Of a DNA stretch of 26,230 bases, positions 1 to 23,979 are shown in pieces. Location of the stretch: IMG/VR virus record IMGVR_UViG_3300030119_000951, positions 1-26,230 of that record; one strand, written 5' to 3'. The position numbers were made by a program, and so were the translations under genes. Position 1 is the first letter of the stretch. Every line of letters begins with the position of its first letter. The notes under the pieces were generated by a model, which was not told the origin of the DNA, searched no databases, and saw only the letters and a program-made list of their open reading frames with translations. This stretch comes from a virus.

Positions 1-1310
1 TCGCCGGGCCCGGCGAGAAGATCGCCGGGCTCATGACGCTGACGGTGGTCCGCCCCGACGACCTAGCCGACCGGCTGCTCGACCGCGACAAGCACCCGCA
101 ATGGCAGGGCGAGCGCACGAAGATGGTGTACGGATTCCCCAGCGACGAAGCCCTGTGGGCTAAATACGCCGACGTGCGGGCGGACGGGCTGCGAAGTGAC
201 CGTGGCATCAAGGCCGCGACAGCGTTCTACAAGCGGCACCGCAAGGCCATGGACGCCGGCGCGGAGATCGCCTGGCCGGAGCGCTACAACCACGACGAGG
301 CGTCGGCGATCCAGCATGCGATGAACCTCCGCCTCCAGGACGAGGCAGCGTTCTTCGCGGAGTACCAAAACGAGCCGCTGCCCGAGGTCGAGGCCGACGA
401 CGACCTGCTGACAGCAGACCAGATCGCCGCGAAGCTCAGCGGGCAGAAGCGCGGCGAGGTCCCGATCGGGTGCTCGCACCTGACGATGTTCGTGGACGTG
501 CAGGGCAAAGCGCTGTTCTGGATGGTCGCCGCGTGGGAGGACGACTTCACCGGGTACGTCATTGACTACGGCACCGAGCCCGATCAGCAGGCTGCGTACT
601 TCACGCTGCGCGATGTCCGGAGGACCCTCGGCGCGGCGGCACCCCGGGCCGGTGTCGAGGGCGCGATCTACGCGGGGCTTGAGCGGCTCTTCGAGCGGAA
701 GCTCGGGCGCGAGTGGAAGCGCGACGACGGGGCCGCGGTCCGCATCGACCGGTGCCTCATCGACGCGAACTGGGGCACGTCCACTAACGTGGTCTACCAG
801 TTCTGCCGGCAGAGCCCGTTCGCATCGGTGCTGCTCCCCAGCCACGGCCGGTACGTCGGCGCGAGCAGCATCCCATTCAGCGAGTACAAGCGGAAGCGCG
901 GCGACCGCGTCGGGCTGAACTGGCGTGTGCCATTGGTGACGGGCAAGCGAGCGGTGCGGCATGTGGTGTTCGACACCAACTTCTGGAAGAGCTTCGTGCA
1001 CGCCAGGCTCGCGGTCCCCATGGGTGACCCGGGCTCGCTCGCGCTCTTCGGGCACAAGCCCGAGACGCACCGTCTCCTCAGTGAGCATCTGACCGCGGAG
1101 TACCGGGTGAAGACCGAGGGCCGCGGCCGCACGGTCGACGAGTGGAAGCTCCGCGTCAGCGGCCTCGACAACCACTGGCTTGACTGCCTGGTCGGGTCGG
1201 CCGTGGCCGCGTCGATGCAGGGGGCGGTGCTGTTCGGGACGGATGTGAAGCCGAGTCCGAGGGTCCGCCTCAGGCTGTCCGATGCCAAGCGTGCCCGCAC
1301 TGGTTTCTGA
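1..1310 (+). CDS. Phage terminase large subunit, GpA family, 5'-truncated (nuclease part)
   Basis: This is the C-terminal part of the DNA-packaging motor. The reading frame is open to the window edge (codons in phase from base 3), so the ATPase half and true start lie upstream; the ATG at 33 is internal. The visible part matches the nuclease domain that cuts concatemeric DNA. Counting from the ATG at 33, candidate metal-binding acidic residues are D155 in a FVDVQ motif, D244 in IDANWG and D384 in HWLDC, the spacing expected of an RNase H-fold terminase nuclease. The segment before D155 (AFFAEYQNEP) is also typical of GpA-type terminases. In related phages a small gpW-position gene and the portal follow at once; here an mcrBC pair comes between. 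The family call is strong; the precise subfamily is inferred. Confidence 0.9.
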   Translation, partial: AGPGEKIAGLMTLTVVRPDDLADRLLDRDKHPQWQGERTKMVYGFPSDEALWAKYADVRADGLRSDRGIKAATAFYKRHRKAMDAGAEIAWPERYNHDEASAIQHAMNLRLQDEAAFFAEYQNEPLPEVEADDDLLTADQIAAKLSGQKRGEVPIGCSHLTMFVDVQGKALFWMVAAWEDDFTGYVIDYGTEPDQQAAYFTLRDVRRTLGAAAPRAGVEGAIYAGLERLFERKLGREWKRDDGAAVRIDRCLIDANWGTSTNVVYQFCRQSPFASVLLPSHGRYVGASSIPFSEYKRKRGDRVGLNWRVPLVTGKRAVRHVVFDTNFWKSFVHARLAVPMGDPGSLALFGHKPETHRLLSEHLTAEYRVKTEGRGRTVDEWKLRVSGLDNHWLDCLVGSAVAASMQGAVLFGTDVKPSPRVRLRLSDAKRARTGF

Positions 1311-1356
1311 CCATGAACCCCAATGGCTCGTACCATGTAGCCGAGGAAGGTACCAC

Positions 1357-3123
1357 ATGGCGAAGCTAACCGGTTGTCCACCAGCGTGCTACGACGCTCT
1401 CCACCGAGTGCGGGAAACCGCGCTGGTCGACTTTGGGAGCCTCTTTACTCCCGATCGGAAGATCTGGACGTCGCGAAACCTCCAGCGACACCACGAGATG
1501 GTCGTGCAGCGGTTCGACGAAGGCGAGGGAAACTTCCTCAGCAAGTACCAGCACCAACTCGATGGCGCGGACGACGACACCATCCAACTTGCCGCCGAGC
1601 TCGTGTACGTCCAGCAGATCTTCACCACGGTCACAGGTCCCAAGAAGAAGATCGCGAACGTTCAGGAGATCCTGACGTGGTGTGATCGAGCCGTCGACAT
1701 CCCGCAGTGGGCGATCGACGGCGCTGCCGGACACGCCGGAGACCAGAGCTTCAACCAGCACCGACCGTGGCACCTGGCATGGATCAACGAGTATCTGCTC
1801 CACTGGCATGAGCTGCCCGAGCCTCGCAGGGCGGAGATCCTCGCTGATCCATGGGCATTCCGAGAGGATGTGTTCGGGCACAAGACCTCGTTGCAAGCCT
1901 TCCAACCGATGCGGGAGGCATGGCTCTACATCGCGTTCCCCGACACGTTCGAGAACATCTCATCCCGCAAGGACAAGAAGGCGATCAGAGCTGGCTTTGA
2001 GAGTCTCTTGCCCAACGGCCCGACCGACAACATCGATCGCGATCTCCTGGCTATACGAGAATCGCTCGGCACAGACGCAGAGCCCGGCTTCCACTTCTAT
2101 CGAAAGCCCTTCCTTCAGCAGTGGAAGGAGCCAAAGGAGCAGAAGTCGAAGAAGCAGGCAGGTGCCGGCGCGGCGAAGGCCGTGACACCGGGCCCCGGTC
2201 TGTCCGCGAGCGATGCACCAGTAGTGATCGAGTCGCTGGACGCGCTTGCCGAGTCACTGATGCTGGAGCCAGTCGACACTTTGTCGCGATGGGCGGCGCT
2301 GCTTGTAGAGAAGGGCCAGATCATCCTCCAAGGACCGCCCGGCACTGGAAAGACCTTCATCGCTCGCAAGATGGCGGAGTCGCTCGCGGGTTCCGCGGAT
2401 CGCGTGACGGTCGTGCAGTTCCATCCGTCGTATTCGTACGAGGACTTTGTTGAGGGCTTCCGCCCTGCCGGCCCCAATCACTTCGAGGTTAAAGACGGTC
2501 CGCTGAAGAGGCTGGCGGCACGTGCGGCGGCCGATCCCAGCGCACGCTTCGTGCTGATCATCGACGAGATCAACCGAGGCAACATCGCGAAGGTGTTCGG
2601 CGAGCTGCTGTTCTTGCTCGAGTACCGCGATGAAGCCATCACCCTGCAGTACTCCGAGGCCCCATTCCGTCTACCGCGGAACCTCCTGATCATCGGAACG
2701 ATGAACACTGCAGACAGATCGATCGCCTTGCTCGACATGGCTCTGCGGCGGCGGTTCCGGTTCATCGACCTTGTCCCCGGCGAGGCGCCGATCGAAGGGT
2801 TGCTGGAGAGGTTCTTGGAATCTAACGCTCCGGACATGGTGTATCTCGCCGGCATGATCGACGCCGTCAACGAGATTGTGGGCGACCGGCACGCGATGGT
2901 TGGTCCGAGCCATTTCCTCACCGATGACCCGCGGGCCCTCACCGAGGAGTGGGCAAAGCAGATCTGGGAGCATTCGGTCATTCCCGCTTTGGCGGACCGC
3001 TTCTTCGACAACCCCAGCGAGATGAGTCAGTTCCTCTACGACACCGTTAGAGACCAGGTTACCGCCGACGATGTTGTGGCCGACCAATCGGAGGACGAGG
3101 ATGCGTCGGCTGACGCTGACTGA
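1357..3123 (+). CDS. mcrB: McrB-like AAA+ GTPase of a type IV (modification-dependent) restriction system
   Basis: The product is the NTP-driven, DNA-recognising subunit of an McrBC system, which in characterised cases cleaves methylated or hydroxymethylated DNA. The ATG at 1357 was chosen over the in-frame ATG at 1282, which overlaps terL, because GAGGAAGG at 1343-1350 lies 6 nt upstream; this gives 588 aa. The C-terminal half is a textbook McrB motor: Walker A GPPGTGKT (residues 326-333), the QFHPSYSYEDFVEGFRP signature soon after, Walker B IIDEINRGN (about 401-409, D403/E404) and sensor-1 GTMNTADRS with M449/N450. The first 300 residues form the variable N-terminal region; FPDTFENISS with nearby basic residues is a pattern seen in other McrB-type proteins, but its DNA target cannot be read. 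The C-terminus is acidic. It overlaps mcrC by 23 nt. GC looks lower than in the flanking phage genes, suggesting separate acquisition. Confidence 0.93.
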   Translation: MAKLTGCPPACYDALHRVRETALVDFGSLFTPDRKIWTSRNLQRHHEMVVQRFDEGEGNFLSKYQHQLDGADDDTIQLAAELVYVQQIFTTVTGPKKKIANVQEILTWCDRAVDIPQWAIDGAAGHAGDQSFNQHRPWHLAWINEYLLHWHELPEPRRAEILADPWAFREDVFGHKTSLQAFQPMREAWLYIAFPDTFENISSRKDKKAIRAGFESLLPNGPTDNIDRDLLAIRESLGTDAEPGFHFYRKPFLQQWKEPKEQKSKKQAGAGAAKAVTPGPGLSASDAPVVIESLDALAESLMLEPVDTLSRWAALLVEKGQIILQGPPGTGKTFIARKMAESLAGSADRVTVVQFHPSYSYEDFVEGFRPAGPNHFEVKDGPLKRLAARAAADPSARFVLIIDEINRGNIAKVFGELLFLLEYRDEAITLQYSEAPFRLPRNLLIIGTMNTADRSIALLDMALRRRFRFIDLVPGEAPIEGLLERFLESNAPDMVYLAGMIDAVNEIVGDRHAMVGPSHFLTDDPRALTEEWAKQIWEHSVIPALADRFFDNPSEMSQFLYDTVRDQVTADDVVADQSEDEDASADAD

Positions 3124-4345
3124 GTACATCACGGCCACCGGGGTGGCTCTTGATGCCGTCGAGGTCGCGATGCTCCGCCGTGTACACCCAACGTTGCGGA
3201 TCGAGCCCGCGATGGGTCTGCCGGGACGATTTGACCTGACCCCGGATCAGCACATCGGACTCGTTCAACTGCCCTCAGTTGCCATCGAAATCCTACCCAA
3301 GACGCCGATGTCTTCGGTTGTCTTTCTAGTCTCGTACGCGGCTGACCGCGTGAACTGGTCCCGAATACAGACAGCATGGCAGGATGATGCGACGCTGGTT
3401 GATCTGATTGCGACCGTGCTGTGCCGATCCATCGAACGCGCGACCCGAAAGGGACTGCTCGCGGGGTATCGCTCCCACGAGGAGTCGCTGTCGGCGCCTC
3501 GGGGCCGGATTCGGTTCCCTGAACACCTCAGCAAGCGACTCGCGCAAGCGCCACCGATCGAGATCGAGCACGATCTGTTCACGACGGACATCGTCGAGAA
3601 TCGAGTGTTGCTCAGCGCCCTCTCACAGCTGCGTCGCCTCACGTTGCGATCAACGACGATCACCCGCGAGATTGGTCGCGCCGCGCGGCTCTTTGGTGGC
3701 GTGGAGCTCTTCCACTATCCGAAGCACAGCATTCCAGAACCGGCCATCACGCAGCTGAATCGGCACTATGAGCCGTCGCTGCAAATCGCCCAGCTCGTCC
3801 TCCGTTCCTCGTCTGTCGATGCCGGAGCGGGAGCTCGGCGGGCGGACGCCTTCCTCGTGGACATGAACGCTGTGTTTGAGATGTTCCTGCGGACGGCGTT
3901 GCGGGAATCGCTCGCTTGTTCCCTGAGCGCGTTCCCCGACAGGCCGCCGCGACTCCGTCTGGATGCCGCGGAGCGCATCCCACTCAAGCCGGACTTGTGC
4001 TTGATCGCGAACGGGGAAATTTCCTGGGTGGGCGACGCAAAGTACAAGCGCCTCAGCCCGGCCGGCTATCAGAACGCCGACGTCTATCAGATGCTCGCGT
4101 ACCTGACGGCCACCGGATTGTCATCAGGGACGCTTATCTACGCTGCCGACGCCGGCTTGACCTCGACTACGCACGTCATCGACGGCGGGGCTCGTGAGGT
4201 TCGGGTACGCACCCTCGATCTGCAGAAGCCCCCGCTCGGCATTCTGCGGGATGTCGCGTCTATCGCAAAGGAGATCCAGGCGTCTGCGACTGTGCCCGAG
4301 ATCAGCGTTCATCCGAAGGGCTCGGCCGTTTCGGTAACCCGGTAG
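3101..4345 (+). CDS. mcrC: McrC-like nuclease subunit of the type IV restriction system
   Basis: McrC supplies the endonuclease and stimulates GTP hydrolysis by McrB; the two act as one complex. The ATG at 3101 has a GAGGACGAGG ribosome site directly upstream and starts inside the end of mcrB, so the two are translationally coupled. An in-frame ATG at 3071 is possible but less likely. The 414-aa product carries the PD-(D/E)XK-type active site: D298 in KPDLCL and D312-A-K314 in GDAKYKR. The N-terminal half includes the EILPK and GRIRF motifs typical of McrC (PF10117-like). No frameshift or missing catalytic residue is visible, so the pair looks intact. It is the last gene of the insertion between terminase and portal. 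Confidence 0.92.
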   Translation: MRRLTLTEYITATGVALDAVEVAMLRRVHPTLRIEPAMGLPGRFDLTPDQHIGLVQLPSVAIEILPKTPMSSVVFLVSYAADRVNWSRIQTAWQDDATLVDLIATVLCRSIERATRKGLLAGYRSHEESLSAPRGRIRFPEHLSKRLAQAPPIEIEHDLFTTDIVENRVLLSALSQLRRLTLRSTTITREIGRAARLFGGVELFHYPKHSIPEPAITQLNRHYEPSLQIAQLVLRSSSVDAGAGARRADAFLVDMNAVFEMFLRTALRESLACSLSAFPDRPPRLRLDAAERIPLKPDLCLIANGEISWVGDAKYKRLSPAGYQNADVYQMLAYLTATGLSSGTLIYAADAGLTSTTHVIDGGAREVRVRTLDLQKPPLGILRDVASIAKEIQASATVPEISVHPKGSAVSVTR

Positions 4346-12233: not shown

Positions 12234-14201
12234 ATGGCCGACACTCGCGGCATCCGGGCCGGGCGTGCGTTCGTGGAGCTCGGCGTCAGCGACCGGCTCA
12301 CGGCCGCACTCAAGCGGGCCGAGCGCAAACTCAAAGCTTTCGGCGAGAGCGTGCGTTCGCTCGGGCTCCGGCTCGCCGGGCTGGGCGGCGCCGCGCTCGC
12401 GCCGCTGGCCGGCGCGGTGAAGCTGTTCTCCGACGCCGGCGACGCCCTCGACAAGATGAGCCTGCGGACGGGCGTCAGCGTCGAGGCCCTGAGCGAGCTC
12501 GGGTTCGCGGCCGAGCAGTCCGGGGCGGATCTGCAGACGCTCGAGAACGGCGTCCGTGTGATGCAGCGCACGCTCAACGACGCCGATCGCGGGCTCGCGA
12601 CGGCCAAGGACGCACTGGCCGACCTCGGGCTTGCCGCCGATGACCTCCGCGGGCTCTCGCCCGAGCAGCAGTTCAAGACGCTGGCCGAGGCGATCAGCCG
12701 GATCGAGGACCCGAGCAAGCGAGCCGCGGTCGCGATGCAGGTCGTCGGCCGCGCCGGGACCAAGCTCCTGCCGCTGATCGAGGGCGGCGTCGACGGCATC
12801 GAAGCCCTGCAGGCGCAGGCCCGCTCCCTCGGCCTGACGATCTCGACCGAGACCGCCAAGGACGCGGCCCTGCTCAACGACACCATGAACATCCTGTTCC
12901 GTGTGCTCAAGCAGGGCGTGTTCATCATCGGCTCGGCGCTGGCGCCCACGGTGATCAAGCTTTCCAACGCGATCACGCGTGTGGTGGTGGCCGCGAGCGA
13001 GTGGGTCAAACAGAACAAAGCGGTCGTCGTCTCGGCGGCCACGATCGCGGCGGGTGTCTTGCTCGCGGGCCTGGCGCTCGTGGGCATCGGCCTGGCGATC
13101 ACGATCGTTGCCGCCGGGTTCGGCGGGCTGGCAACGGCGGTGACCGCCGCCGGGGCCGTGCTCGGGGCGATCCTCTCGCCGATCGGGCTCGTGGTCGCGG
13201 CCATGGTCGGCCTCGGCGTGGCGATCGTGCGGTACACCGACGCGGGCGGGCAGGCCCTGTCGTGGCTCATGGAGCGGTTCGGGGAGCTTCGGGCGTTCGT
13301 CGGCCGGGTCGCCGGCGGGATCGGCGATGCGCTCGCTGCGGGCGACATCGCACTCGCCGCCGAGGTGCTCTGGCTCGGGCTCAAGGTCGCCTGGGAGCGG
13401 GGCGTCGCCGAGCTGAACGCCGTCTGGCTGCGGGCCCGGGCCTTCTTCGTCGGTAACGCCCAGAAGATGTGGTACGGCGCATTGGCCGCGGCGCAGGTCG
13501 TGCTGCACGCCCTCGAGACCGCGTGGATCGAGAGCACGGCGTTCCTCTCCAAGACCTGGACCCGTTTCACGGCGGGGTTCCAGAAGGTCTGGGAGCGGGC
13601 GTCGTCGTTCGTCGCCAAGCGGATGCTCGAGATCCAGGGGCTCTTCGACGACGGGCTCGATGTCGAGGCCGCGAAGCGGGCGGTGGACGAGCAGCTCGAT
13701 GCCCGGCTCGGCGAGATCGACGCCGGTGCACGCCGCGACATCGACCAGCGAGAGCAGCGCCGGGCCGCGGACCGGTCGCGATCGGACGCCCTGAATGAGG
13801 CCACGCTCGCCGAGATCGGGCGTCAGTTCGAGGAAGCGCAGGACGCGCTCCGGGAGGGCACGGACGCCCGTCTCGAGGAAACCCAGCGCCGGCTCGACGA
13901 AGCCCGGGCCAAGCTCGACGCCGCGATCGCCGAGGCCCGCAGACGCCGCGAAGAAGCAGAGGGCGATGCGCCGACCGGACCCCGAAGCCTGCTGACAGAG
14001 CTTGAGGACCGTCTCGGCGGGCTCGGGGACGCCATCGCCGAGCGGATCGAGGTGCGGGGCACATTCAACGCGCTGGCGGTCCAGTCGCTCGCCGGCGGGG
14101 ACGCCGCGGCCGAGCGCACCGCCAAGGCCACCGAGCAGACCGCCCGCAACACCAAGCGGCTGGCCGACGCCGCGCAGACCGGCGGCCTGACTTTCGCCTG
14201 A
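12234..14201 (+). CDS. Tail tape measure protein
   Basis: The largest tail gene encodes 655 aa, starting at ATG 12234 after GGGGAGG. It sets tail length and is ejected with the DNA. An N-terminal segment (LKRAERKLKAFGESVRSLGL, then SDAGDALDKMSLRTGVSVEA) matches the phage tape-measure core. Residues about 262-330 are strongly hydrophobic and could form membrane-spanning helices during DNA entry. Residues about 480-590 are long, charged and heptad-like (coiled coil). At the empirical 0.15 nm per residue the tail would be roughly 100 nm, which is an inference. No peptidase or lysozyme domain is visible. Confidence 0.88.
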   Translation: MADTRGIRAGRAFVELGVSDRLTAALKRAERKLKAFGESVRSLGLRLAGLGGAALAPLAGAVKLFSDAGDALDKMSLRTGVSVEALSELGFAAEQSGADLQTLENGVRVMQRTLNDADRGLATAKDALADLGLAADDLRGLSPEQQFKTLAEAISRIEDPSKRAAVAMQVVGRAGTKLLPLIEGGVDGIEALQAQARSLGLTISTETAKDAALLNDTMNILFRVLKQGVFIIGSALAPTVIKLSNAITRVVVAASEWVKQNKAVVVSAATIAAGVLLAGLALVGIGLAITIVAAGFGGLATAVTAAGAVLGAILSPIGLVVAAMVGLGVAIVRYTDAGGQALSWLMERFGELRAFVGRVAGGIGDALAAGDIALAAEVLWLGLKVAWERGVAELNAVWLRARAFFVGNAQKMWYGALAAAQVVLHALETAWIESTAFLSKTWTRFTAGFQKVWERASSFVAKRMLEIQGLFDDGLDVEAAKRAVDEQLDARLGEIDAGARRDIDQREQRRAADRSRSDALNEATLAEIGRQFEEAQDALREGTDARLEETQRRLDEARAKLDAAIAEARRRREEAEGDAPTGPRSLLTELEDRLGGLGDAIAERIEVRGTFNALAVQSLAGGDAAAERTAKATEQTARNTKRLADAAQTGGLTFA

Positions 14202-15027: not shown

Positions 15028-16056
15028 ATGGCAGACGCCTTCCGCAAAGTCCGATCCGGCCAGCCGCTGGTGATCCCCGCGAGGGCGTACAACGCCTTCG
15101 TCGATGCGGCCGTGGCCGAGCGCCGGCGCGAGCAGACGCAAGGCGGCGGGCCGCTTGCCGATGCCGTGCCCCGCGGGCTGGTGCTCGTGCGGAACGACTC
15201 AGACCAGACCATCGAGCCCTACCACGTGCTGGCGATCTCCGGCGTGCTCGTCGAGCCGGGCGAGGACGATCAGGAGCGGACGTTCCACAGCCGGACACCG
15301 CTGACGGGCAAGATCGCGGCCGAGGAGTCCAGCCCCATGACGTTCGTGCTGGCGACCCAGCCGATCAAGGCGGGCGAACTCGGGCGGTGCGTGCTGACGG
15401 GCGTCACCCCCGCGCGGGTGTATGTGGCCAGCGAACTCGACACGACCTGCGAGCTCGCGCCCGAGGAGACTGTGCTCACCAGCACGCCGATGGGCGGCGT
15501 GCCGATCCTCTGGAAGGAAGCCGGCGTCGGCGAGAAATGGGCGGTCATCGAGATGGGCCGGCCGTCATCGGGCCGCGTCACCGCGATCCTCGGCGCGGCC
15601 CAGCCGATCCCGACCGAGAGCAACCGCTGGCGGTACCCGTGGCAGGAGGCCCGGCTCGACGGCGACCCGGGCAGCGAGACCTACCTGCGCTACGTCGCCG
15701 TCCCCGAGGGGCTCTCATCGCAGCTTCCCAGCGGCGGCGAGGACCCCACCAAGCTCGCGATCAATCGCTTCGAGGCTCACCACATGAACGAAGGCACGCC
15801 CGGAACGGGCTTCGAGGGCCTGCTGGGCCTCGGCCCGGTCTGCGACCTGCCCGGCGTGCTGCCCAACTGCCCGCCAGCCCGGTCGCTCCGCCCGAAGCTC
15901 GTGCCGATCCCCGAGGGCGTCTGCGTGCAGCTGACCTGCGAGCGCAACAGCAAGGGCCGGCCTGTCTGGGTCTTCGAGGCGATGACTCTGATGGAGCTGG
16001 CCGACCCGGCCGACGGGGACCGGAAGTTCAACCTGTTCGTGGAGGGTGCGGGATGA
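15028..16056 (+). CDS. Uncharacterised phage structural protein
   Basis: The 342-aa product begins MADAFRKVRSGQPLVIPARAYNAFVDAA, a pattern I associate with phage proteins of unknown function encoded after tail genes. The middle is beta-rich (GLVLVRNDSDQTIEPYHVLA, TPLTGKIAAEE, CVLTGVTPARVYV), suggesting small beta-barrel units, followed by a less structured C-terminal half with several cysteines (residues about 272-310). It may be a tail or fibre component. Its stop overlaps the methyltransferase start (ATGA at 16053-16056), linking it to the modification cluster downstream. Confidence 0.62.
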   Translation: MADAFRKVRSGQPLVIPARAYNAFVDAAVAERRREQTQGGGPLADAVPRGLVLVRNDSDQTIEPYHVLAISGVLVEPGEDDQERTFHSRTPLTGKIAAEESSPMTFVLATQPIKAGELGRCVLTGVTPARVYVASELDTTCELAPEETVLTSTPMGGVPILWKEAGVGEKWAVIEMGRPSSGRVTAILGAAQPIPTESNRWRYPWQEARLDGDPGSETYLRYVAVPEGLSSQLPSGGEDPTKLAINRFEAHHMNEGTPGTGFEGLLGLGPVCDLPGVLPNCPPARSLRPKLVPIPEGVCVQLTCERNSKGRPVWVFEAMTLMELADPADGDRKFNLFVEGAG

Positions 16057-16628
16057 CCGCTCCGACGAGCGCCACTACCAACGAGCTCGACGCACGCCGC
16101 GAGCACGAGCGGAGCAAGTACGTGGCGCTCGCGTCGCGCTCGGGCTCGGGCTCGGCGTACGGCGCGACCAACCACGGCCGCGACGCCATCGCGATCGTGA
16201 AGCGATGGAAGCCCCGGTTCGTGGTCGACTTCGGCTGCGGCCGCAACGACTTCATCGCCGAGCTCCGCCGGCACGGCATCGACGGCCTCGGCGTGGACTT
16301 CGCGTTCCCCGAGGCGGACATCGCCAAGCCGATGCACGACACCGGCCTTGTCGAGGGCGTCACCGATGTCGTGACCAATTTCGATGCGCTCGAGCATCTG
16401 CTCACCGAGGACGTGGTCCCGGTGCTGAACGAGATGCGCCGAGTCGCCCGGCCGCGGGGGTGGTTCTGCGTCTCGGTCTGTACCCGACCCAGCCGCATCA
16501 CGGTCGCCGGCGAGAACCTCCACCCGACCGTCCGACCCCTGGCCTGGTGGATCGAGACGATCGGACGCGTTGGCGTGATCAGCGACACCCGCGCTGCCGG
16601 CCGCTACATCACCGGGAGGTTCCGGTGA
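16053..16628 (+). CDS. SAM-dependent methyltransferase-like protein (class I)
   Basis: A 191-aa protein with the class I fold signature: motif I FVVDFGCGRNDF, the GLGVDFAFPEADIAKP strand, and DVVTNFDALEHL, where DALEHL matches the Ubie/Methyltransf_11-type motif IV region. It is short and lacks an obvious substrate domain. First of five genes chained by 4-nt overlaps with glycosyltransferases and the Ser/Gly-rich protein, so a role in methylating a sugar or the target protein is plausible; no direct evidence for the substrate. Its stop overlaps the next start (GTGA at 16625-16628). Confidence 0.75.
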   Translation: MTAPTSATTNELDARREHERSKYVALASRSGSGSAYGATNHGRDAIAIVKRWKPRFVVDFGCGRNDFIAELRRHGIDGLGVDFAFPEADIAKPMHDTGLVEGVTDVVTNFDALEHLLTEDVVPVLNEMRRVARPRGWFCVSVCTRPSRITVAGENLHPTVRPLAWWIETIGRVGVISDTRAAGRYITGRFR

Positions 16629-17536
16629 ACAACCCCAACCAGTCCGACATCATCGCCCTGCAGCGTGGCATCAAGGCCCGTGCGCCCGCCCGCAGCGGGC
16701 TGCGGTTCTACACCAGCGACTTCGACTCGATCTCGCTCGGCGGGTTCTACAAGGGCCGCTCAGCGTTCCTCGTGTTGTCAGGCCCGTCGCTGAACGACAT
16801 CGACCTCACGCAGCTCAACCGGCGTGGCATCGTGACCATGGGCGTGAACAACTCATGGACCGTGCACCGTCCAACGCTTTGGACCTGCGTCGACGATCCG
16901 GGTCGTTTCATCGACACGGGGTGGAAAGACCCGGGCGTGCTGAAGTTCGTGCCGGTCTGCCACTGGGGCCGCAAGCTGCGGATCCAAACAAAGGACGGCA
17001 CGATGCGCGATAGCACGTTCCGCGTGGCGCAGATGCCGAGCGTGCTGTTCTTCCGCCGCAGCAACCACTTCGACCACGAGCGGTTCCTCACTTGCGACAC
17101 AGTCCCCTGGGGCAACGACCCGAAGTCCACCGACTCGCTGGGCATCAAGGGCAAGCGGAGCGTGATGCTCGTGGCGCTGCGGCTCCTGCACCACCTGGGG
17201 TTCCGGACAGTGTACCTGCTGGGCTGCGACTTCAGGATGGCGGCCGATCGCAAGTACGCCTTCGATGAGACCCGCGAGGCCGCCGCAATCAGGCACAACA
17301 ACACGCTCTACGACTCGCTCAGCCGGCGATTCGAGGCCCTCCAGCCGCACTTCGAGAAACACAGGTTCCGCGTGGTGAACTGCTCACCCGGCAGCGAGCT
17401 CGGCGTGTTCGAGCGGATGGCCTACCGGGACGCGATCGCGGCGGCCAGCGCCGAGTGCGCTAAGCCCGTCAGCACGCAGGGGTGGTACACGCCGATCGAG
17501 CCGCCGAAGGAGGCCGCCCAGGGGACAAACCGATGA
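16625..17536 (+). CDS. Rossmann-type protein resembling DUF115/CST-I glycosyltransferases
   Basis: A 303-aa protein starting at GTG 16625. It has AFLVLSGPSLNDIDLTQL followed by VTMGVNNSW, the GPSL...N pattern at the start of DUF115 and CST-I-type sialyltransferase folds. Later SVMLVALRLLHHLGFRTVYL then LLGCDFRM matches the second half, where an Asp after the G-C or G-x motif is conserved. It probably transfers or handles an activated sugar. The alternative is another GPSL Rossmann enzyme not involved in glycosylation. Co-translated with the methyltransferase upstream and the Ser/Gly-rich gene downstream (ATGA at 17533-17536). Confidence 0.62.
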   Translation: MNNPNQSDIIALQRGIKARAPARSGLRFYTSDFDSISLGGFYKGRSAFLVLSGPSLNDIDLTQLNRRGIVTMGVNNSWTVHRPTLWTCVDDPGRFIDTGWKDPGVLKFVPVCHWGRKLRIQTKDGTMRDSTFRVAQMPSVLFFRRSNHFDHERFLTCDTVPWGNDPKSTDSLGIKGKRSVMLVALRLLHHLGFRTVYLLGCDFRMAADRKYAFDETREAAAIRHNNTLYDSLSRRFEALQPHFEKHRFRVVNCSPGSELGVFERMAYRDAIAAASAECAKPVSTQGWYTPIEPPKEAAQGTNR

Positions 17537-18492
17537 GCGAGCCGACCCGGTACTACCTCTACATCCCCGTCTGGGCCACGGGCCGCGCCCCGCAGGGCGG
17601 GGGCTCGAGCGATTACTCGACGCCCGGCACGCCGGACTCGTCGTACCAGACGCCGGCGAGCAGCACGCCGACGCCCTCGGAGGGCACGAGCTACTCGACG
17701 ACCGGCGATGTGATCTACACCACCGGCCCCAGCGGCACGCCGACACTCACCACTTACACCACGGATGCGTTTACGAGCGACAGCGGGACGTCTCCGAGCG
17801 AATCAGACTCACCCAGCGTCAGCGAGACTGCGCCGCTGAGCTCCAGCAGCGGCGGCGGATCGACCGGCGCTTCCAGCGGCGGTTCTTCGGCGGCTTCGAG
17901 CGGGGGATCGTCTGGCGGCTCATCGTTCAACTCCTCAATGGCTTCGACCGACGACCCGGGCTCGTCAGGCGGCGGGTCCTCCGGTGGTGGCGGATCGAGC
18001 GGCTGTGGAAGCGGCCCGGGCGGTTCGGGCTCGGGGCCCGGTGGCAGCGGTCCGGGCGGGTCCGGCCCCGGAGGATCAGGTTCCGGCGGCAGTTCCAACC
18101 AGTCGAGCATGGACTCGTCCGGCGCCAGCAGCGGCGCGTCGAGCGGCGAAAGCTCGGGTTCCGGATCGAGCAGCGAGAGCTCGTCCGTCGAGTCGCCGAG
18201 CGACAGCTTCAGCCAGACGCTCACCCTCGGCTCCGAGGGCACCATCAAGAACACGACCATCACCATCGGCACAAGCTCCGACTCGTTCACCGGCACGTGG
18301 ACCACCGATCCGAGCGGCACCATCGTCGGCACGGAGGTCACCATCGACCCCGGCTCCGGGTCTGGCAGCTCGGGCAACGACGCAGCCGCGCTGGGCAAGT
18401 TCGGCGAGCAGTTCATCGAGGGTGGCATGGAGGGCGTGCCGCCAGCCGGGTGGCAGGTCGAATCGAGCACCACGCAGGAGGCACCGAAGTGA
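17533..18492 (+). CDS. Ser/Gly/Thr-rich low-complexity protein, probable glycosylated virion or surface protein
   Basis: The 319-aa product has a short N-terminal anchor-like segment (MSEPTRYYLYIPVWATG), a Thr/Ser/Pro-rich part (to about 110), a dense Ser/Gly part with a GPGGSG repeat run (about 158-186, after C158), and a beta-like part with two copies of a 26-residue unit (GSEGTIKNTTITIG near 233 and SGTIVGTEVTID near 261). The last 50 residues are less biased (LGKFGEQFIEGGMEGVPPAGW). No signal peptide is visible. It is flanked on both sides by sugar-transfer genes within one overlapping chain, so O-glycosylation of its many Ser/Thr residues is the likely theme. Tail fibre or head fibre is inferred. 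Confidence 0.7.
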   Translation: MSEPTRYYLYIPVWATGRAPQGGGSSDYSTPGTPDSSYQTPASSTPTPSEGTSYSTTGDVIYTTGPSGTPTLTTYTTDAFTSDSGTSPSESDSPSVSETAPLSSSSGGGSTGASSGGSSAASSGGSSGGSSFNSSMASTDDPGSSGGGSSGGGGSSGCGSGPGGSGSGPGGSGPGGSGPGGSGSGGSSNQSSMDSSGASSGASSGESSGSGSSSESSSVESPSDSFSQTLTLGSEGTIKNTTITIGTSSDSFTGTWTTDPSGTIVGTEVTIDPGSGSGSSGNDAAALGKFGEQFIEGGMEGVPPAGWQVESSTTQEAPK

Positions 18493-19109
18493 TCCCCAAG
18501 ATTGTCTACACCGCGCACCTCGCCGAGTCGCCCGTGCCGGACACTTTCCGTCGATGGCAGGCCGAGTGGCAACGACACCACCCCGAGTGGGACATCCGCG
18601 TGATCACCCTCGACGACCGCGAGCCGATCTTCAACCACGCCCAGTGGGCCGAGACGTTCAAGCTGCCGGAGCCCGCGGGCGCGGCGTCGCGGCTCAATAT
18701 CCTCCGCTACGAGCTGCTCGCCCGCGAGGGTGGCGTGTTCGTCAACCCCGACCGCCTGCCAATGTGCCCGATCGAGGACCTGGTCAGCGGCGTCCGGGCG
18801 TTCTGCTCCACCACGCAGCAGCACGGCCGGCCGCACCTGCTCTCGCCCGCTGTGATGGGGGCCGTACCGTGCCACCCGACCCTTTGGCACTGCGTCCGCG
18901 ACCTCGCCTACTCCGTCGCGACGTTTCGGGGCGTCTGGGACCAGACGGGGCCGGGCTTCCTGAGCCGCGTGATCCGCGACCACGGCCACTTCCGCGATGT
19001 GGTCCCCTTTCACTGGGCCCTCTTCGAGCAGGCCGAAGCCGACGCCCGCGAGCATGGCGGTGCGTACCTCTTCAATGCGAGCCTTCAGCCCGTGGAGGCA
19101 GTCGCCTGA
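18489..19109 (+). CDS. GT32-like glycosyltransferase with altered DXD motif
   Basis: A 206-aa protein starting at GTG 18489 (GTGA overlap). It opens IPKIVYTAHLAESPVP, followed by FRRWQAEWQRHHPEWDIRV, then AASRLNILRYELLAREGGVF, the arrangement of DXD-type sugar transferases (Gly_transf_sug, GT32/OCH1-like). Where most members read Y-[LV]-D-x-D, this one reads VFVNPDR: the first metal-binding Asp is replaced by Asn. It could be inactive, metal-independent, or a partner of the intact GT that follows. The C-terminal half (GPGFLSRVIRDHGHF) still resembles the family. It lies immediately after the Ser/Gly-rich gene. Confidence 0.78.
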   Translation: MIPKIVYTAHLAESPVPDTFRRWQAEWQRHHPEWDIRVITLDDREPIFNHAQWAETFKLPEPAGAASRLNILRYELLAREGGVFVNPDRLPMCPIEDLVSGVRAFCSTTQQHGRPHLLSPAVMGAVPCHPTLWHCVRDLAYSVATFRGVWDQTGPGFLSRVIRDHGHFRDVVPFHWALFEQAEADAREHGGAYLFNASLQPVEAVA

Positions 19110-19837
19110 TGGTCGACGCCTCCCCTATCCCGAAGGTGCTCCACCAGATCTGGCTCGGCCGCGGCGAGATGCCCATCCAGCAGCGCCGCTGGCGACGCCG
19201 GTTCGCTGAGATGAACTCGGGCTGGACGCTCCACCTGTGGACCGACGACCACCTGCCTTTCCCGATCCTGAACCGCCGGGCATGGGACGTGTGCCTCGCG
19301 ATCGGCGGCGTCCCCGGCTGCGTCATGCGGAGCGACATCCTTCGCCTCGAACTCATGGCCCGCGTGGGTGGCGTATACCTCGACACGGACATCAAACCCG
19401 TCCGCCCGCTGGACGCCTGCTTCCCGCCCGGCGTCAACGCCTGGGTCGCCTGCGAGCAGGGAGACATCATTTCGAACGCGGCGATGGGTTTCGCACCCAA
19501 CCACCCCGCGGCGTGGCGGGCGGTGAACGCGATCGAGGAGTCGTTCTTTGAACGACGGGCCGTCGGCGAACAGGCAGGCCCGGGCTTCATCGCCCGGATG
19601 ATGCTCGAGCACGATGACGTGGTCCTCTGGCCGCCGGCGTGCTTCCACCCGACCGTCGCGGAGGTGGCGACGAATCCTGACCGGATTCGCCTGCTCATGC
19701 AGGCCCATCTCTTTGCGGGATCATGGGTAGAAGGCCGGCGGCATGACTATCGTGCCCTCTGGGCGTCGAATCTCGCCGATCGCACCCGCCGACTCACTCC
19801 CCCGGTTCAGCCGCCTCGAGCAGCAAACGCTTCTTGA
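19109..19837 (+). CDS. GT32-like glycosyltransferase, intact DXD motif
   Basis: A 242-aa protein starting at ATG 19109 with a TGATG overlap on the previous stop. Motifs in order: IPKVLHQIWLGRGEMP, WTLHLWTDDHLPF, MRSDILRLELMARVGGVYLD with DTDIKPVRPLD supplying the DXD metal site, ISNAAMGFAPNHPAAWRAV, and GPGFIARMMLEHDDVVLWPP. This is a standard capsule/OCH1-type transferase using a nucleotide sugar. It is the last gene of the late operon; its final 44 bp overlap the end of the convergent AAA+ ATPase gene, so no terminator lies between the two operons. Confidence 0.85.
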   Translation: MVDASPIPKVLHQIWLGRGEMPIQQRRWRRRFAEMNSGWTLHLWTDDHLPFPILNRRAWDVCLAIGGVPGCVMRSDILRLELMARVGGVYLDTDIKPVRPLDACFPPGVNAWVACEQGDIISNAAMGFAPNHPAAWRAVNAIEESFFERRAVGEQAGPGFIARMMLEHDDVVLWPPACFHPTVAEVATNPDRIRLLMQAHLFAGSWVEGRRHDYRALWASNLADRTRRLTPPVQPPRAANAS

Positions 19838-20645
19838 GGCGGAAGTACGTCGCCCGGGAGAGACCCGTTGCTTCCTGGAACGCGGCGAGGCGTTCAACCT
19901 CGGTGCTCAATCGGGGATCAGACACCACGGCGGCAACCATCGACATCGTTCGATTCCCACACATCATCTGGAGCAGGCTCTCCTGCCAATCAACGAATCC
20001 GGCCTCTCGCAGCCGCGCCGCCTTGGCGTACCACCGCATCGAGACGTGCGACACCAGATGCAGGTGACGACCGACGAACTCGTAGACCACGTCGTCGGTG
20101 CACCACTGTCCAGCCTCCTGATGGACCTCTGCGGTATCCGGATCAAAGTGCACGATGATGGCTCGGTCCTCCAGAGCCTGGACGTCGGCGTTGATGGTCT
20201 TCCACTCATTCGCGATGAGAACTACCGGGCTCCGTGTCTCAAACTCCTTTGGCAGCGTGACATCGTCGTCGGTCACGCGCGTCCGCCAAGCGACTCGCTT
20301 GACGGGCTTCGATTCGCAGAGCGGCTTGAGGAGACGTACGCAGTCTGGGTTGGCGTACAGCCGGTCGAGATCGTCGAGGATCACTGGCTGGTTCAGGTGC
20401 TCCCAGAGTTCTCGGTAGATCCCAAAGGGCTGGGCATGGCCTTCGACATACAGCGCATCACCGTTGCACTGCTCGAGGATGGCCCGACGCACCCGCTCGG
20501 TCTTCCCCGTTCCCGGTCGTCCGAGCAGCAGGAGCACGTACAGCGAGCCGTCGATGACCTTGCAGATGTACCGATCCAGTTCCGCGTAGGTGCCGACGGA
20601 GATCGCATCCCCCGGCGCAGTGGGTTGGCGACTTGGCTTGGTCAC
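19794..20645 (-). CDS. AAA+ ATPase with C-terminal HTH-like segment, linked to ParB-like genes
   Basis: A 283-aa protein starting at GTG (20645), 3 nt after the ParB-like gene 2 stop. Walker A is GRPGTGKT (residues 42-49), Walker B PVILDDLDRL with D91/D92, and a sensor-1-like VVLIANEW lies near 141-148. The C-terminus (about 255-275, ATGLSRATYFRLKKRLL) resembles a helix-turn-helix. The domain layout (compact AAA plus DNA-binding tail) fits a DNA-remodelling or partner-loading ATPase. It is the last gene of the recombinase-ParB-ParB-ATPase operon. No named family recognised; roles in integration, excision or replication are inferred from context. Confidence 0.75.
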   Translation of the reverse strand: MTKPSRQPTAPGDAISVGTYAELDRYICKVIDGSLYVLLLLGRPGTGKTERVRRAILEQCNGDALYVEGHAQPFGIYRELWEHLNQPVILDDLDRLYANPDCVRLLKPLCESKPVKRVAWRTRVTDDDVTLPKEFETRSPVVLIANEWKTINADVQALEDRAIIVHFDPDTAEVHQEAGQWCTDDVVYEFVGRHLHLVSHVSMRWYAKAARLREAGFVDWQESLLQMMCGNRTMSMVAAVVSDPRLSTEVERLAAFQEATGLSRATYFRLKKRLLLEAAEPGE

Positions 20646-20648
20646 GTA

Positions 20649-21551
20649 CTACGCCTCGGGCTGCCCGAGTTCGGTGATCTCCGAGAGCTTCTCGAACTCG
20701 GCGTAGATATCCGGGTACTTCCGCGACAGGAACTTCACGACGGCGGCATTGCCGAGCAATCGCCGGATGTACCCGACCGCCAGGACGAGGTTGAGGACGT
20801 TCCGACCGTGCGACTCCTCGAGAGAGCGGAAGTCCTGCTCGATCGAGGCCATCTCGCGCTCGATCCGTGCAACATCCTCAGGGCGAAGTCCATCGGCGTC
20901 CTTGCCGCGCTCCGGCTCAACGAGCTGATCCGGAGGCGTTGCGGCCACCAGACACTTGGCATACGGCGTAGCGAAGTTGTTCGATGCCACCATCAACTCA
21001 GCCATCTCAATCTGCCGCATCGGCTCCACGCGCCGGAGTTCGCGGATGGTGCCCTGCGTGGCGTGGCGGTCCTTCAGCAATTCGACTGCCTCTGGGCAGA
21101 TGCCGTCGAGCAGGTCGCGCTTCTTTCGGATCGCCGAGACATCGAGCTTGAGCGTGGCTGCGATCCGGTCTTCGGAGACACCGTTCTTGATCGCCTTGAC
21201 GATCATGAAGTGTTCTTGGATCGGCGAGATCTGGTTGATCTTGTGGTTGTACGTGAACGAATCGTCCGTTGTCGCGATGAGGCAGAACACCTCAGTCGCG
21301 CCCTGCTCCTTGAGAATGTCATACCGCAGCAGCCCATCGAGGATGAGGTACTTCTGGCCCCGACCGCGTGATCCCGCCTGCGGGAACACAACGATGGGCT
21401 CGATCATCCCAACCTGCCCCATCGAGGCCACGATCCTCTGGTAGCGAGAGGACGTCCGCGTCGACTTCGGCAGCGTCCTCAGCGGAAGCAACTGCGACAG
21501 GGTGATCATCTTGCCCTCCGGTCTGAACGCCATTCGGACAGACTGCCCCAT
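20649..21551 (-). CDS. ParB/RepB-like protein 2 (divergent box)
   Basis: A 300-aa protein whose ATG (21551) overlaps the stop of ParB-like gene 1 (TGATG). Ordered ParB features: a strand near ITLSQLLPLRTLP, SSRYQRIVASMGQVGMIEPIVV, YLILDGLLRYDILKEQG in place of the usual G-x-R-R box, then an HTH-like segment (about 123-148, NGVSEDRIAATLKLDVSAIR). The C-terminal 90 residues are helical. The GERR-type catalytic box of CTP-hydrolysing ParB proteins is reduced to DGLLR, so CTP use is uncertain. It belongs to the RepB_C-type group by general resemblance and is encoded between its paralogue and the ATPase. Confidence 0.78.
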   Translation of the reverse strand: MGQSVRMAFRPEGKMITLSQLLPLRTLPKSTRTSSRYQRIVASMGQVGMIEPIVVFPQAGSRGRGQKYLILDGLLRYDILKEQGATEVFCLIATTDDSFTYNHKINQISPIQEHFMIVKAIKNGVSEDRIAATLKLDVSAIRKKRDLLDGICPEAVELLKDRHATQGTIRELRRVEPMRQIEMAELMVASNNFATPYAKCLVAATPPDQLVEPERGKDADGLRPEDVARIEREMASIEQDFRSLEESHGRNVLNLVLAVGYIRRLLGNAAVVKFLSRKYPDIYAEFEKLSEITELGQPEA

Positions 21552-22429
21552 CAGCCACGCTCCCCGACTTCGGGTTGATCGACAAGCACCTGCGGCATCT
21601 CGTCCAGCGCCTCGTCTCGCAGGACTTGGACGAAGGAAGCGTCTTGAAGCAAACGCTTCAGGGCCGAACGCACGAAGAGGAGCCGAGTCTCGGTCACCTT
21701 GGCCTTGTTGATCTCCCGGCGCTGCTTGGAGACCTCTTCCTGGTATCGCTTCATCAGACCATCGGCGGTCATGGTGGACGCCCGGCCGCCAGCGCTCCGA
21801 ACGCCGCGAACGCGGCGTTGTTCGATCAACTTCCTAGCCCGGAGTAGCTCCTTCCCACGCAGCGTGCTCTTCTCGTACGCCTCCCGGAGCGCCTCCTGGA
21901 CCTCCTCGTGGTCAGAGCTGGCGATCGTGACAGCGATACTCAGCGGGATCTGGTTCTTCTCGACCGCCCGGATCAACCGGTCTTCGCCCTTGTTCACCAG
22001 CCGGATGATTCCCTTAACGTACGACAGCTGAAGATCGGTGATCTTCGCGATCTCCGCGTAGTTGTGGCCACGATCCTTCAGAGCGGCGATCTCACGCATG
22101 AGTTCGTTCGACCGGTACGAGCGGCGAGCGAGATTCTCCGCGAGGCTCATCAAGAGGAGCTCGTCCTTTGTTGCCTCGACGACGAACGCAGGCACCTCCG
22201 TCTCGCCGAGCAGCTTGTAGGCTTCAAGCCGCCCCTGGCCGCACACGAGGTCGTACCGAGGCGATCCGTTGTTGGTCGGCCGCTCGGCGACGGTGATCGG
22301 CTTCTTCAGCCCCAGGTTCGAGATGTTCCCGACGATCTGCTTGAACTTCTCGCGGCCTCGGGACCGCGGGTTCACGACCGTGATCCGATCGATCGGGATC
22401 ATCACAATCTCGCGTTCGCCCGCGGTCAT
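21551..22429 (-). CDS. ParB/RepB-like protein 1
   Basis: A 292-aa protein. The start is placed at ATG 22429, which overlaps the recombinase stop (ATGA) and has GAGGGGG a few bases upstream; an in-frame ATG at 22453 is inside the recombinase gene and less likely. Motifs: IPIDRITVVNPRSR (about 11-24), the ParB box as LVCGQGRLEA (C63-R67), SLAENLARR (95-103), an HTH (about 122-142, HNYAEIAKITDLQLSYVKG), and a long helical C-terminus like plasmid-partition RepB proteins. It should bind DNA at a specific site; partner protein 2 and the ATPase are encoded directly after it. Confidence 0.82.
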   Translation of the reverse strand: MTAGEREIVMIPIDRITVVNPRSRGREKFKQIVGNISNLGLKKPITVAERPTNNGSPRYDLVCGQGRLEAYKLLGETEVPAFVVEATKDELLLMSLAENLARRSYRSNELMREIAALKDRGHNYAEIAKITDLQLSYVKGIIRLVNKGEDRLIRAVEKNQIPLSIAVTIASSDHEEVQEALREAYEKSTLRGKELLRARKLIEQRRVRGVRSAGGRASTMTADGLMKRYQEEVSKQRREINKAKVTETRLLFVRSALKRLLQDASFVQVLRDEALDEMPQVLVDQPEVGERG

Positions 22430-23979
22430 GCGACCCCCTCGACACTGACGCACGTGGCCATGTCACGGAAGAAGCCGAGCGTGTCGAAGCGGTACGTATC
22501 GATCCTGGCCCCGTTGTGCTCGGAGAGCGCGAGCTTCGACCATTCGATGTCCAGCCTCGGGATCAGGTAGTAATCCGACGGCATGTCGTTCGCCGGATCC
22601 ATGCGCACCACGATGGTGATGTCGGCCGCTGACTCGCGGTCGAACCGGACCAGCCAGTGGGGCGAGCGGCTGTCCGTGTGACGACAGCGCGACAGGCACA
22701 TCGCGGCCGTGTAGGTCTCATTGATCGTGAGCAGACGAGACTCGGGGTCGTGGTCAACGCTGGCGCCCACCGCCTCGAGGTCCTGCATGACATCGCCAAG
22801 CAGGTGGGGGTGCTTGTCCCGGAGCCGCTTGTTGATCTCGATGTACTCGAAGTCCCGGTTCGGGGTGTACCCGACCAAGCGGTACGCGTTGACGAGGCTT
22901 GAGAATCGATACCGGAACGAGGCGCTGGAGGGAACGCCGTCGGCGTCATCGATAAGAGCCCCCGAGAGGTAGCCGTGCGTGTCCAGAACGGCCCGGAGCC
23001 GCTCGAGCATCTCCTCGTCGGTGAAGCGGCGATTCCGTTCCTGAATGATGCCTCGGGCGGTGAAGAACCACTCCGGCTCGACGATGGAATCGAATGCGGC
23101 GTCGGCGCGGACGAGCTGGTCGGGCGGATTGACAACCCGGTTCTTCTTGAGCTTGAAGGACACCCGGTTCCAGACGTTGTTCCCGATGTACTTCTCGTTG
23201 GTGAGGATCTGATGGACGCTGCCGCGGGTCCACGCCCGGCCAAGGTCCGTGGCGATGCCGCGATCGTTGAGAATCTGGGCGATCTCGCGTTCCGAGCGGT
23301 TCTCTTCGAGGAACATTCTGTAGATGGACCGAACCACGTCGATCTCTTCTGACGGGCCCGCGACGAGAACAACGCGGTCGGTCTGCAGGCTCTTATGCTC
23401 ACCCCTCTTGAGCACGCCCTTTGATTCGCCGCTCTGATCGATGAGTTGGCGCCGCAGCCCGAAGCCCGCCGGTCCGCCCTGACGGTACCCCATCTCGATG
23501 AGTCGGCACTGGCCTTTGAAGACCTTGGCCGACAACTCTCGGCTGTACTCGCCCGCCATGGCCCGCTTGACACCCTTGATGATTGTCGAGACCGGGCTGC
23601 CATCATTCTCAAACTGCTCGGCGCAGTAGACGAGCTTGATGCCCGCCCGCTTCAACCGATACTCGTAGTAGGCGCTCTCGTCGGTGTCCTGGAACCGACC
23701 CCAGCGGCTGACGTCATAGACGAGGATGGCTTCGAAATCGGTCTCCCCGGCCTCGACGTCGGCGAAGAGCCGCTTCAGACCCTCGCGTCCGTCGAGGCGT
23801 AGACCACTCTTACCGTCGTCGGCGTAGGTCTTGACGATCTCGTAGCCGCGGGCTGCGGCATACTCGCGGATTACGTCGGCCTGGTTCTCGGTCGAGTATT
23901 GCTGGTGCTCCGTCGACATCCGGACGTACTGTGCGGCCCGGATGTGAGGCATAGAAGGGATGGCATCGTCGCTGTGCAT
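22426..23979 (-). CDS. Large serine recombinase (phage integrase-type) without evident zinc ribbon
   Basis: The 517-aa protein starts at ATG 23979 (alternative M10). Residues about 14-160 form the resolvase catalytic domain: YVRMSTEHQ with R20 and S22 as nucleophile, LVYDVSRWGR, and IIKGVKRAMAGEYSRELS with the catalytic-type Arg residues. Residues about 185-295 form the DNA-binding recombinase domain (GYRQGGPAGFGLRR; SEREIAQILNDRGI; GSVHQILTNEKYIGNNVWN). The usual four-Cys zinc ribbon and its LLsGLLrCg.CG signature are not seen; the C-terminal 220 residues hold a different region ending YLIPRLDIEWSKL with DTYRFDTLGFF. It probably integrates and excises the element. First gene of a four-gene operon. 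Confidence 0.88.
   Translation of the reverse strand: MHSDDAIPSMPHIRAAQYVRMSTEHQQYSTENQADVIREYAAARGYEIVKTYADDGKSGLRLDGREGLKRLFADVEAGETDFEAILVYDVSRWGRFQDTDESAYYEYRLKRAGIKLVYCAEQFENDGSPVSTIIKGVKRAMAGEYSRELSAKVFKGQCRLIEMGYRQGGPAGFGLRRQLIDQSGESKGVLKRGEHKSLQTDRVVLVAGPSEEIDVVRSIYRMFLEENRSEREIAQILNDRGIATDLGRAWTRGSVHQILTNEKYIGNNVWNRVSFKLKKNRVVNPPDQLVRADAAFDSIVEPEWFFTARGIIQERNRRFTDEEMLERLRAVLDTHGYLSGALIDDADGVPSSASFRYRFSSLVNAYRLVGYTPNRDFEYIEINKRLRDKHPHLLGDVMQDLEAVGASVDHDPESRLLTINETYTAAMCLSRCRHTDSRSPHWLVRFDRESAADITIVVRMDPANDMPSDYYLIPRLDIEWSKLALSEHNGARIDTYRFDTLGFFRDMATCVSVEGVA

Follow-up and report, generated by a model that had tools for sequence, protein, structure and literature searches.

The window analyzed here, by which we mean the whole stretch of DNA, is the entire IMG/VR virus record IMGVR_UViG_3300030119_000951 (26,230 bases). 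Its late operon ends in a chain of genes for a methyltransferase (MT), a protein resembling CST-I (CST-like), a Ser/Gly/Thr-rich protein (SG), and two GT32-like transferases (GTa and GTb). Upstream of the chain lie head genes (TerL, portal, protease-capsid fusion, and cement) and then tail genes as far as the tape measure (12234-14201), and the gene that overlaps the start of the chain is referred to here as 'pre'. We consider it probable, if by no means assured, that SG is a glycan-decorated virion surface protein served by a swappable set of transferases, with which the phage would build its own sugar coat. The initial annotation of this DNA had placed five plus-strand genes with overlaps of 1-4 nt at 16053-19837, at the end of the late operon, and both the coordinates and the position hold. 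The features are as follows.

15028-16056, plus strand: 'pre', putative virion surface protein; N-terminal domain (residues ~46-178) with a predicted decoration/head-fibre-like fold; fusion partner of SG in relatives
16053-16628, plus strand: MT, 191 amino acids (aa), ATG start; class I S-adenosylmethionine-dependent methyltransferase
16625-17536, plus strand: CST-like, 303 aa, GTG start; predicted Maf/sialyltransferase-type fold, presumed glycosyltransferase; GPSL, VNNSW, and GxD motifs
17533-18492, plus strand: SG, 319 aa, ATG start; Ser/Gly/Thr-rich, presumed acceptor; allele without a Hint domain
17548-17583, plus strand: N-terminal peptide of SG, (R)YYLYIPVWATGR; conserved across the group, possible docking motif
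18402-18449 (bounds approximate), plus strand: C-terminal tail of SG, QFIEGGMEGVPPAGWQ; peptide co-occurring with the GT32 pair
18489-19109, plus strand: GTa, 206 aa, GTG start; GT32-like, NPD replacing DPD
19109-19837, plus strand: GTb, 242 aa, ATG start; GT32-like, DTD motif intact

The overlaps measure 4 nt between 'pre' and MT and then 4, 4, 4, and 1 nt along the chain, and the late operon ends there, the next gene (19794-20645) being on the minus strand. Codon positions were compared in MT, CST-like, SG, and GTa against the relatives L003 and L007, whose contigs end at or before GTb. Substitutions fall mainly at position 3 in all four genes, and the differences between SG and its L003 counterpart number 17/13/65 at positions 1/2/3. 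Such dominance of third-position change marks SG as a translated, constrained gene, as opposed to a GC artefact. GTb is conserved in an alignment of 23 sequences. The minus strand contains a 433-aa frame that overlaps SG (17754-19055). In view of the conserved motifs of SG and its bias toward third-position substitutions, we discounted this frame as a GC-rich shadow.

SG and the neighboring enzymes in related loci

The composition of SG (27% Ser, 21% Gly, and 12% Thr over its 319 aa) bears out its description as Ser/Gly/Thr-rich, with Gly-rich repeats dominating one part of the protein. Relatives in which such a gene was absent or stood apart from the transferases would have spoken against the initial annotation, which had tied the two together, and that situation does not arise: SG is linked to MT and CST-like across the group. 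Of 80 distinct CST-like sequences (taken from viral contigs and genomes), 72 are directly followed by a gene that bears the N-terminal motif of SG, and MT lies upstream of CST-like in loci with upstream DNA available. Here and below, distinct sequences were counted, of which many are mutually related, and the genomes are a sample, often incomplete. The eight exceptions comprise five distant phages (L029, L030, L033, L185, and L186), one contig end (L024), L133 with an unrelated sequence after CST-like, and L208, which has a Hint domain downstream and an unrecognised N-terminal motif. The N-terminal peptide itself is found across the group but is missing where SG is fused to 'pre'. What did not survive is the notion of five genes as one fixed unit, because GTa and GTb are accessory and restricted to a minority of relatives.

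Both members of this pair had been called GT32-like, a call that stands for GTb (29.1 bits against a PF04488 cut-off of 23, and 29.5 bits for PF12919) and is less secure for the window GTa, which reaches 16.8 bits against the same cut-off; an L043 orthologue passes with 29.6 bits and a DPD motif. DPD is present in 18 of 20 GTa homologues, NPD occurs only in the window, and L078 has EPG; GTb has DTD, replaced by DLD in L078. From its motif, the window GTa may be impaired or weakened. With GTb as the sole query, a search of IMG/VR gave no match. The presence of the pair follows the C-terminus of SG closely. GTa comes after SG in all 16 cases where SG ends in the tail FI[EP]GGxEGVPPAxWQ (minor variants allowed) and in none of the 45 without it (Fisher p 5e-15, a figure that ignores relatedness). 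The scripted count was 15 plus one discordant locus, L194, whose tail has P for E; it was missed by the pattern and then included. On the CST-like tree, the GT32 pair sits in two separated clades, so that two changes are needed. L078 has the pair and a similar SG tail without an MT or CST-like gene, and the decayed prophage L251 likewise combines the pair with a similar tail. These sequence patterns suggest that the SG tail is what the GT32 pair recognises. GTb copies without SG in G188, G076, and G073 were set aside as counter-examples, since these copies are broken or lack part of their N-terminus, and none is accompanied by a full GTa.

Most relatives carry a further element within SG. A Hint domain lies between the Ser/Gly linkers of 60 of the 67 scorable SG proteins, and L230 additionally matches the Hint profile. 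A pattern requiring Cys1 and a final HN gathered 64 distinct Hint sequences, in which TxxH is present in all 64 and Asn precedes Cys1 in 63, and the +1 residue after HN is Asp in 59, Thr in 4, and Gln in 1. Their Pfam Hint-clan matches are below cut-off, and the nearest PDB sequence is the bacterial intein-like (BIL) domain 2lwy (E 5.7e-8). The domains thus resemble A-type BIL domains in having Cys1, TxxH, a C-terminal HN, and a mostly non-nucleophilic +1 residue. They differ in lying within a virion-type phage protein and in being missing from the window SG, where profile, motif, and alignment gave no Hint match or motif. BIL domains without a +1 nucleophile give mainly cleaved products (reviews PMC7664689 and PMC7765530). 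Mapped on the CST-like tree, the Hint domain requires a single change, located in the clade of the window, where linkers and tail are retained. Phages of Erwinia and Dickeya likewise have Hint domains in virion proteins, and the open library gave no clear precedent for BIL domains in phage fibres. A lone-lysine motif, ~K[SDN]SGSS[FM], comes after the Hint domain in 42 of 44 SG proteins (L023, L025, L043, and L143, for example) and is missing from the Hint-less alleles, the window included; judged by its position, the lysine could act as the nucleophile in a ligation mediated by the BIL domain.

The 'pre' gene offers a probable connection between SG and the particle. It is conserved after the tape measure in relatives, its domain is fused to SG in L078, L086, and L089, and a version that is both doubled and split is present in L057 and L234. 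A model of the domain of moderate confidence (predicted local distance difference test, pLDDT, 69.8) matched HFTV1 (Z 10.2), a phi29 gp12 fragment (9.0), T1 (8.9), and phi29 gp8.5 (7.3), with matches below about Z 8 being weak, and its sixteen best structural matches are all phage virion proteins. The N-terminal domain of 'pre' is therefore predicted to have a phage decoration or head-fibre-like fold, and SG may sit on either head or tail. Within the next few genes of the fused SG proteins lies a gene fusing a GT25-like domain to Sulfotransfer_3 (L078:19653-21221; also L231-L235), at the end of phage structural operons. Because these genes adjoin fused SG proteins, the modifying enzymes appear to change while SG stays. 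Going by their domains, they hint at sulfated virion glycans in relatives.

Phages can alter host surface glycans, and the transferases might act in this way through lysogenic conversion, or else on another virion protein ('pre', tail, or capsid), leaving SG a mere structural neighbor. CST-like genes without an SG neighbor in the distant phages L029, L030, and L033 fit such a target, and the acceptor role of SG is one that we infer. We nonetheless judge another target to be unlikely, if worth keeping in view, because the transferase genes form no separate moron but share overlaps with virion genes inside the late operon, the GT32 pair goes together with the tail of SG, and different transferases stand beside SG while SG persists. 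It is more doubtful still that SG is a bare Gly/Ser-rich fibre or linker, BIL-processed in most relatives, with the transferases as unrelated passengers. That explanation makes good use of the Gly-rich repeats and the frequent BIL-type Hint domain, yet it leaves the linkage to MT and CST-like, the association of tail and GT32 pair, and the recurrence of new transferases unexplained, and the window allele has all of the enzymes without the BIL domain.

Predicted chemistry of MT and CST-like

If SG is decorated by its neighbors, the first two enzymes of the chain are of particular interest. MT matches Pfam Methyltransf_23 (E 3.1e-9) and Methyltransf_11 (E 1e-8), both above cut-off, in agreement with its first description as methyltransferase-like. 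The description of CST-like as a DUF115/CST-I-like protein is upheld by its predicted structure; its Pfam matches to MptE-like (DUF115) and CST-I are both sub-threshold, and in PHROGs it matches phrog_4603 (E 1.5e-10). An AlphaFold2 model built from a 25-sequence alignment (pLDDT 82.9) was ranked with VIA-align, and the top match was the Maf flagellin glycosyltransferase 5mu5 (Z 14.4, root-mean-square deviation 3.6, 210 residues), with the archaeal HPPK 8sd5 (Z 10.8), Cst-I (10.0), and mammalian sialyltransferases (~9) next. Foldseek alone gave no match to the model in the PDB below E 0.001. A search of PDB sequences with the CST-like profile gave bacterial sialyltransferases (E 0.009-0.03). 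The model makes a Maf/sialyltransferase-like fold well supported, and glycosyl transfer is the reaction that we infer from it. That CST-like is instead a pterin or nucleotide kinase is very improbable: MptE-like is its best Pfam match, albeit sub-threshold, and HPPK ranks second structurally, but Maf stands 3.6 Z units above HPPK, the PDB sequence search gave sialyltransferases and not HPPK, and the neighbors are methyl- and glycosyltransferases.

In L033 (8567-9949), between other tail genes, a single gene joins a CST-like protein to a methyltransferase domain at the C-terminus, and this fusion supports the view that MT and CST-like are functionally linked. A phage methyltransferase-domain protein is also found among the structural matches of the CST-like model in BFVD.

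A candidate virion glycosylation module

Taken as virion modification by a temperate Phycisphaerales phage, the module would work in the following way. SG would be a flexible, surface-exposed virion protein, probably docking by means of the conserved peptide near its N-terminus. CST-like, with its predicted Maf fold, would move a sugar onto Ser/Thr of SG, perhaps a host-supplied nonulosonate activated with cytidine monophosphate (CMP), and MT would methylate the sugar or the protein. The accessory GT32 pair would act on SG variants bearing the FIEGGxEGVPPAxWQ tail, adding or extending glycans, and in the window this step may depend mainly on GTb. Relatives may add sulfate. The benefit is a matter of speculation and could be altered adsorption, shielding of the particle, or competition. 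A more elaborate version, in which SG is usually auto-processed by BIL, phages swap Maf-like plus MT, the GT32 pair, and GT25-sulfotransferase, and the tail addresses the GT32 enzymes, is one that we hold tentatively, with slightly less than even confidence.

Several points weigh against a decorated SG. The evidence consists of sequence and predicted structure alone. CST-like scores 19.6 bits against PF01973, under the curated cut-off of 34.6, and it is one domain plus short ends (303 aa), whereas bacterial Maf has three domains (PMC11339370). The window GTa is without the first Asp of its DXD motif. The tail and the GT32 genes are adjacent, and inheritance as a block could yield their association without recognition. 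The nonulosonate synthase NeuB is present in 15 of 16 hosts, mostly near a CMP-sugar synthetase, but related genomes that lack the phage gene have it just as often (18 of 20), and host NeuB was dropped as a discriminating test of the donor. The earlier proposal of a glycosylation cassette beside a Ser/Gly-rich acceptor thus stands as far as linkage, Maf fold, fusion to a virion domain, and tail/GT32 association carry it, with SG the presumed acceptor.

Serine-rich repeat adhesins of Gram-positive bacteria also pair a Ser-rich protein with several linked glycosyltransferases. The initial annotation had drawn this comparison, and it is apt in that SG is a Ser-rich presumed acceptor beside its transferases. 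It holds as an analogy only, since inspection of the SG sequence found no signal-peptide-like start and no LPXTG anchor, the setting is a phage structural operon, and the enzyme families are others. Maf enzymes, for their part, put nonulosonates on Ser/Thr of flagellin (PMC11339370). CST-like is similar to Maf (PF01973; 5mu5) in its predicted fold and in having a Ser/Thr-rich presumed acceptor encoded alongside, and dissimilar in its single domain, its sub-threshold Pfam score, and its location in a phage virion operon and not with flagellin. For mycobacteriophages, it is established that enzymes encoded by the phage O-glycosylate the virion (Freeman et al. 2023, as cited in PMC11652166). There, as is proposed here, phage-encoded glycosyltransferases modify the phage's own particle, and gene order and overlaps do place the transferases of the window beside virion genes. 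In the mycobacterial prophage record matched by GTb, several glycosyltransferases and methyltransferases cluster upstream of terminase and no SG-like gene adjoins them, whereas the putative enzymes here are embedded beside a dedicated Ser/Gly-rich protein. By likeness to each, the module may work as Maf and mycobacteriophage glycosylation combined.

Few phages have so far been shown to have glycosylated virions. The proposed acceptor and enzymes travel together while the enzyme set varies, which makes acceptor recognition testable with natural allele pairs. If the proposal is true, one and the same phage surface protein would be subject to a Maf-type enzyme, to BIL processing, and possibly to sulfation.

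Phage setting and neighboring genes

Relatives of the window capsid protein, up to ~80% identical, lie mostly in genomes labelled Planctomycetota, chiefly Phycisphaerales. For phages of this phylum, the isolate collection (50,697 phage records) gave no relative of CST-like or 'pre', and the open library gave no clear precedent for planctomycete Mu-like phages. In several such genomes the module is repeated, with four to seven CST-like genes in each of the single Phycisphaerales genomes G001, G002, G003, and G007, which suggests heavy poly-lysogeny.

Between terminase and portal, at 1282-4345, the window encodes an McrB-like AAA protein (AAA_5, E 2e-22) and McrC (PF10117, E 1e-56), a type IV restriction pair inside the head module. 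The minus-strand gene at 19794-20645 encodes an AAA-type ATPase and lies tail to tail with GTb, overlapping its 3' end by 44 nt; similar minus-strand genes come after SG in L014 and L019. Two tandem RepB/ParB-like genes on the minus strand adjoin a large serine recombinase (20649-23979), and a recombinase resembling the latter is located downstream of the SG region in L233.
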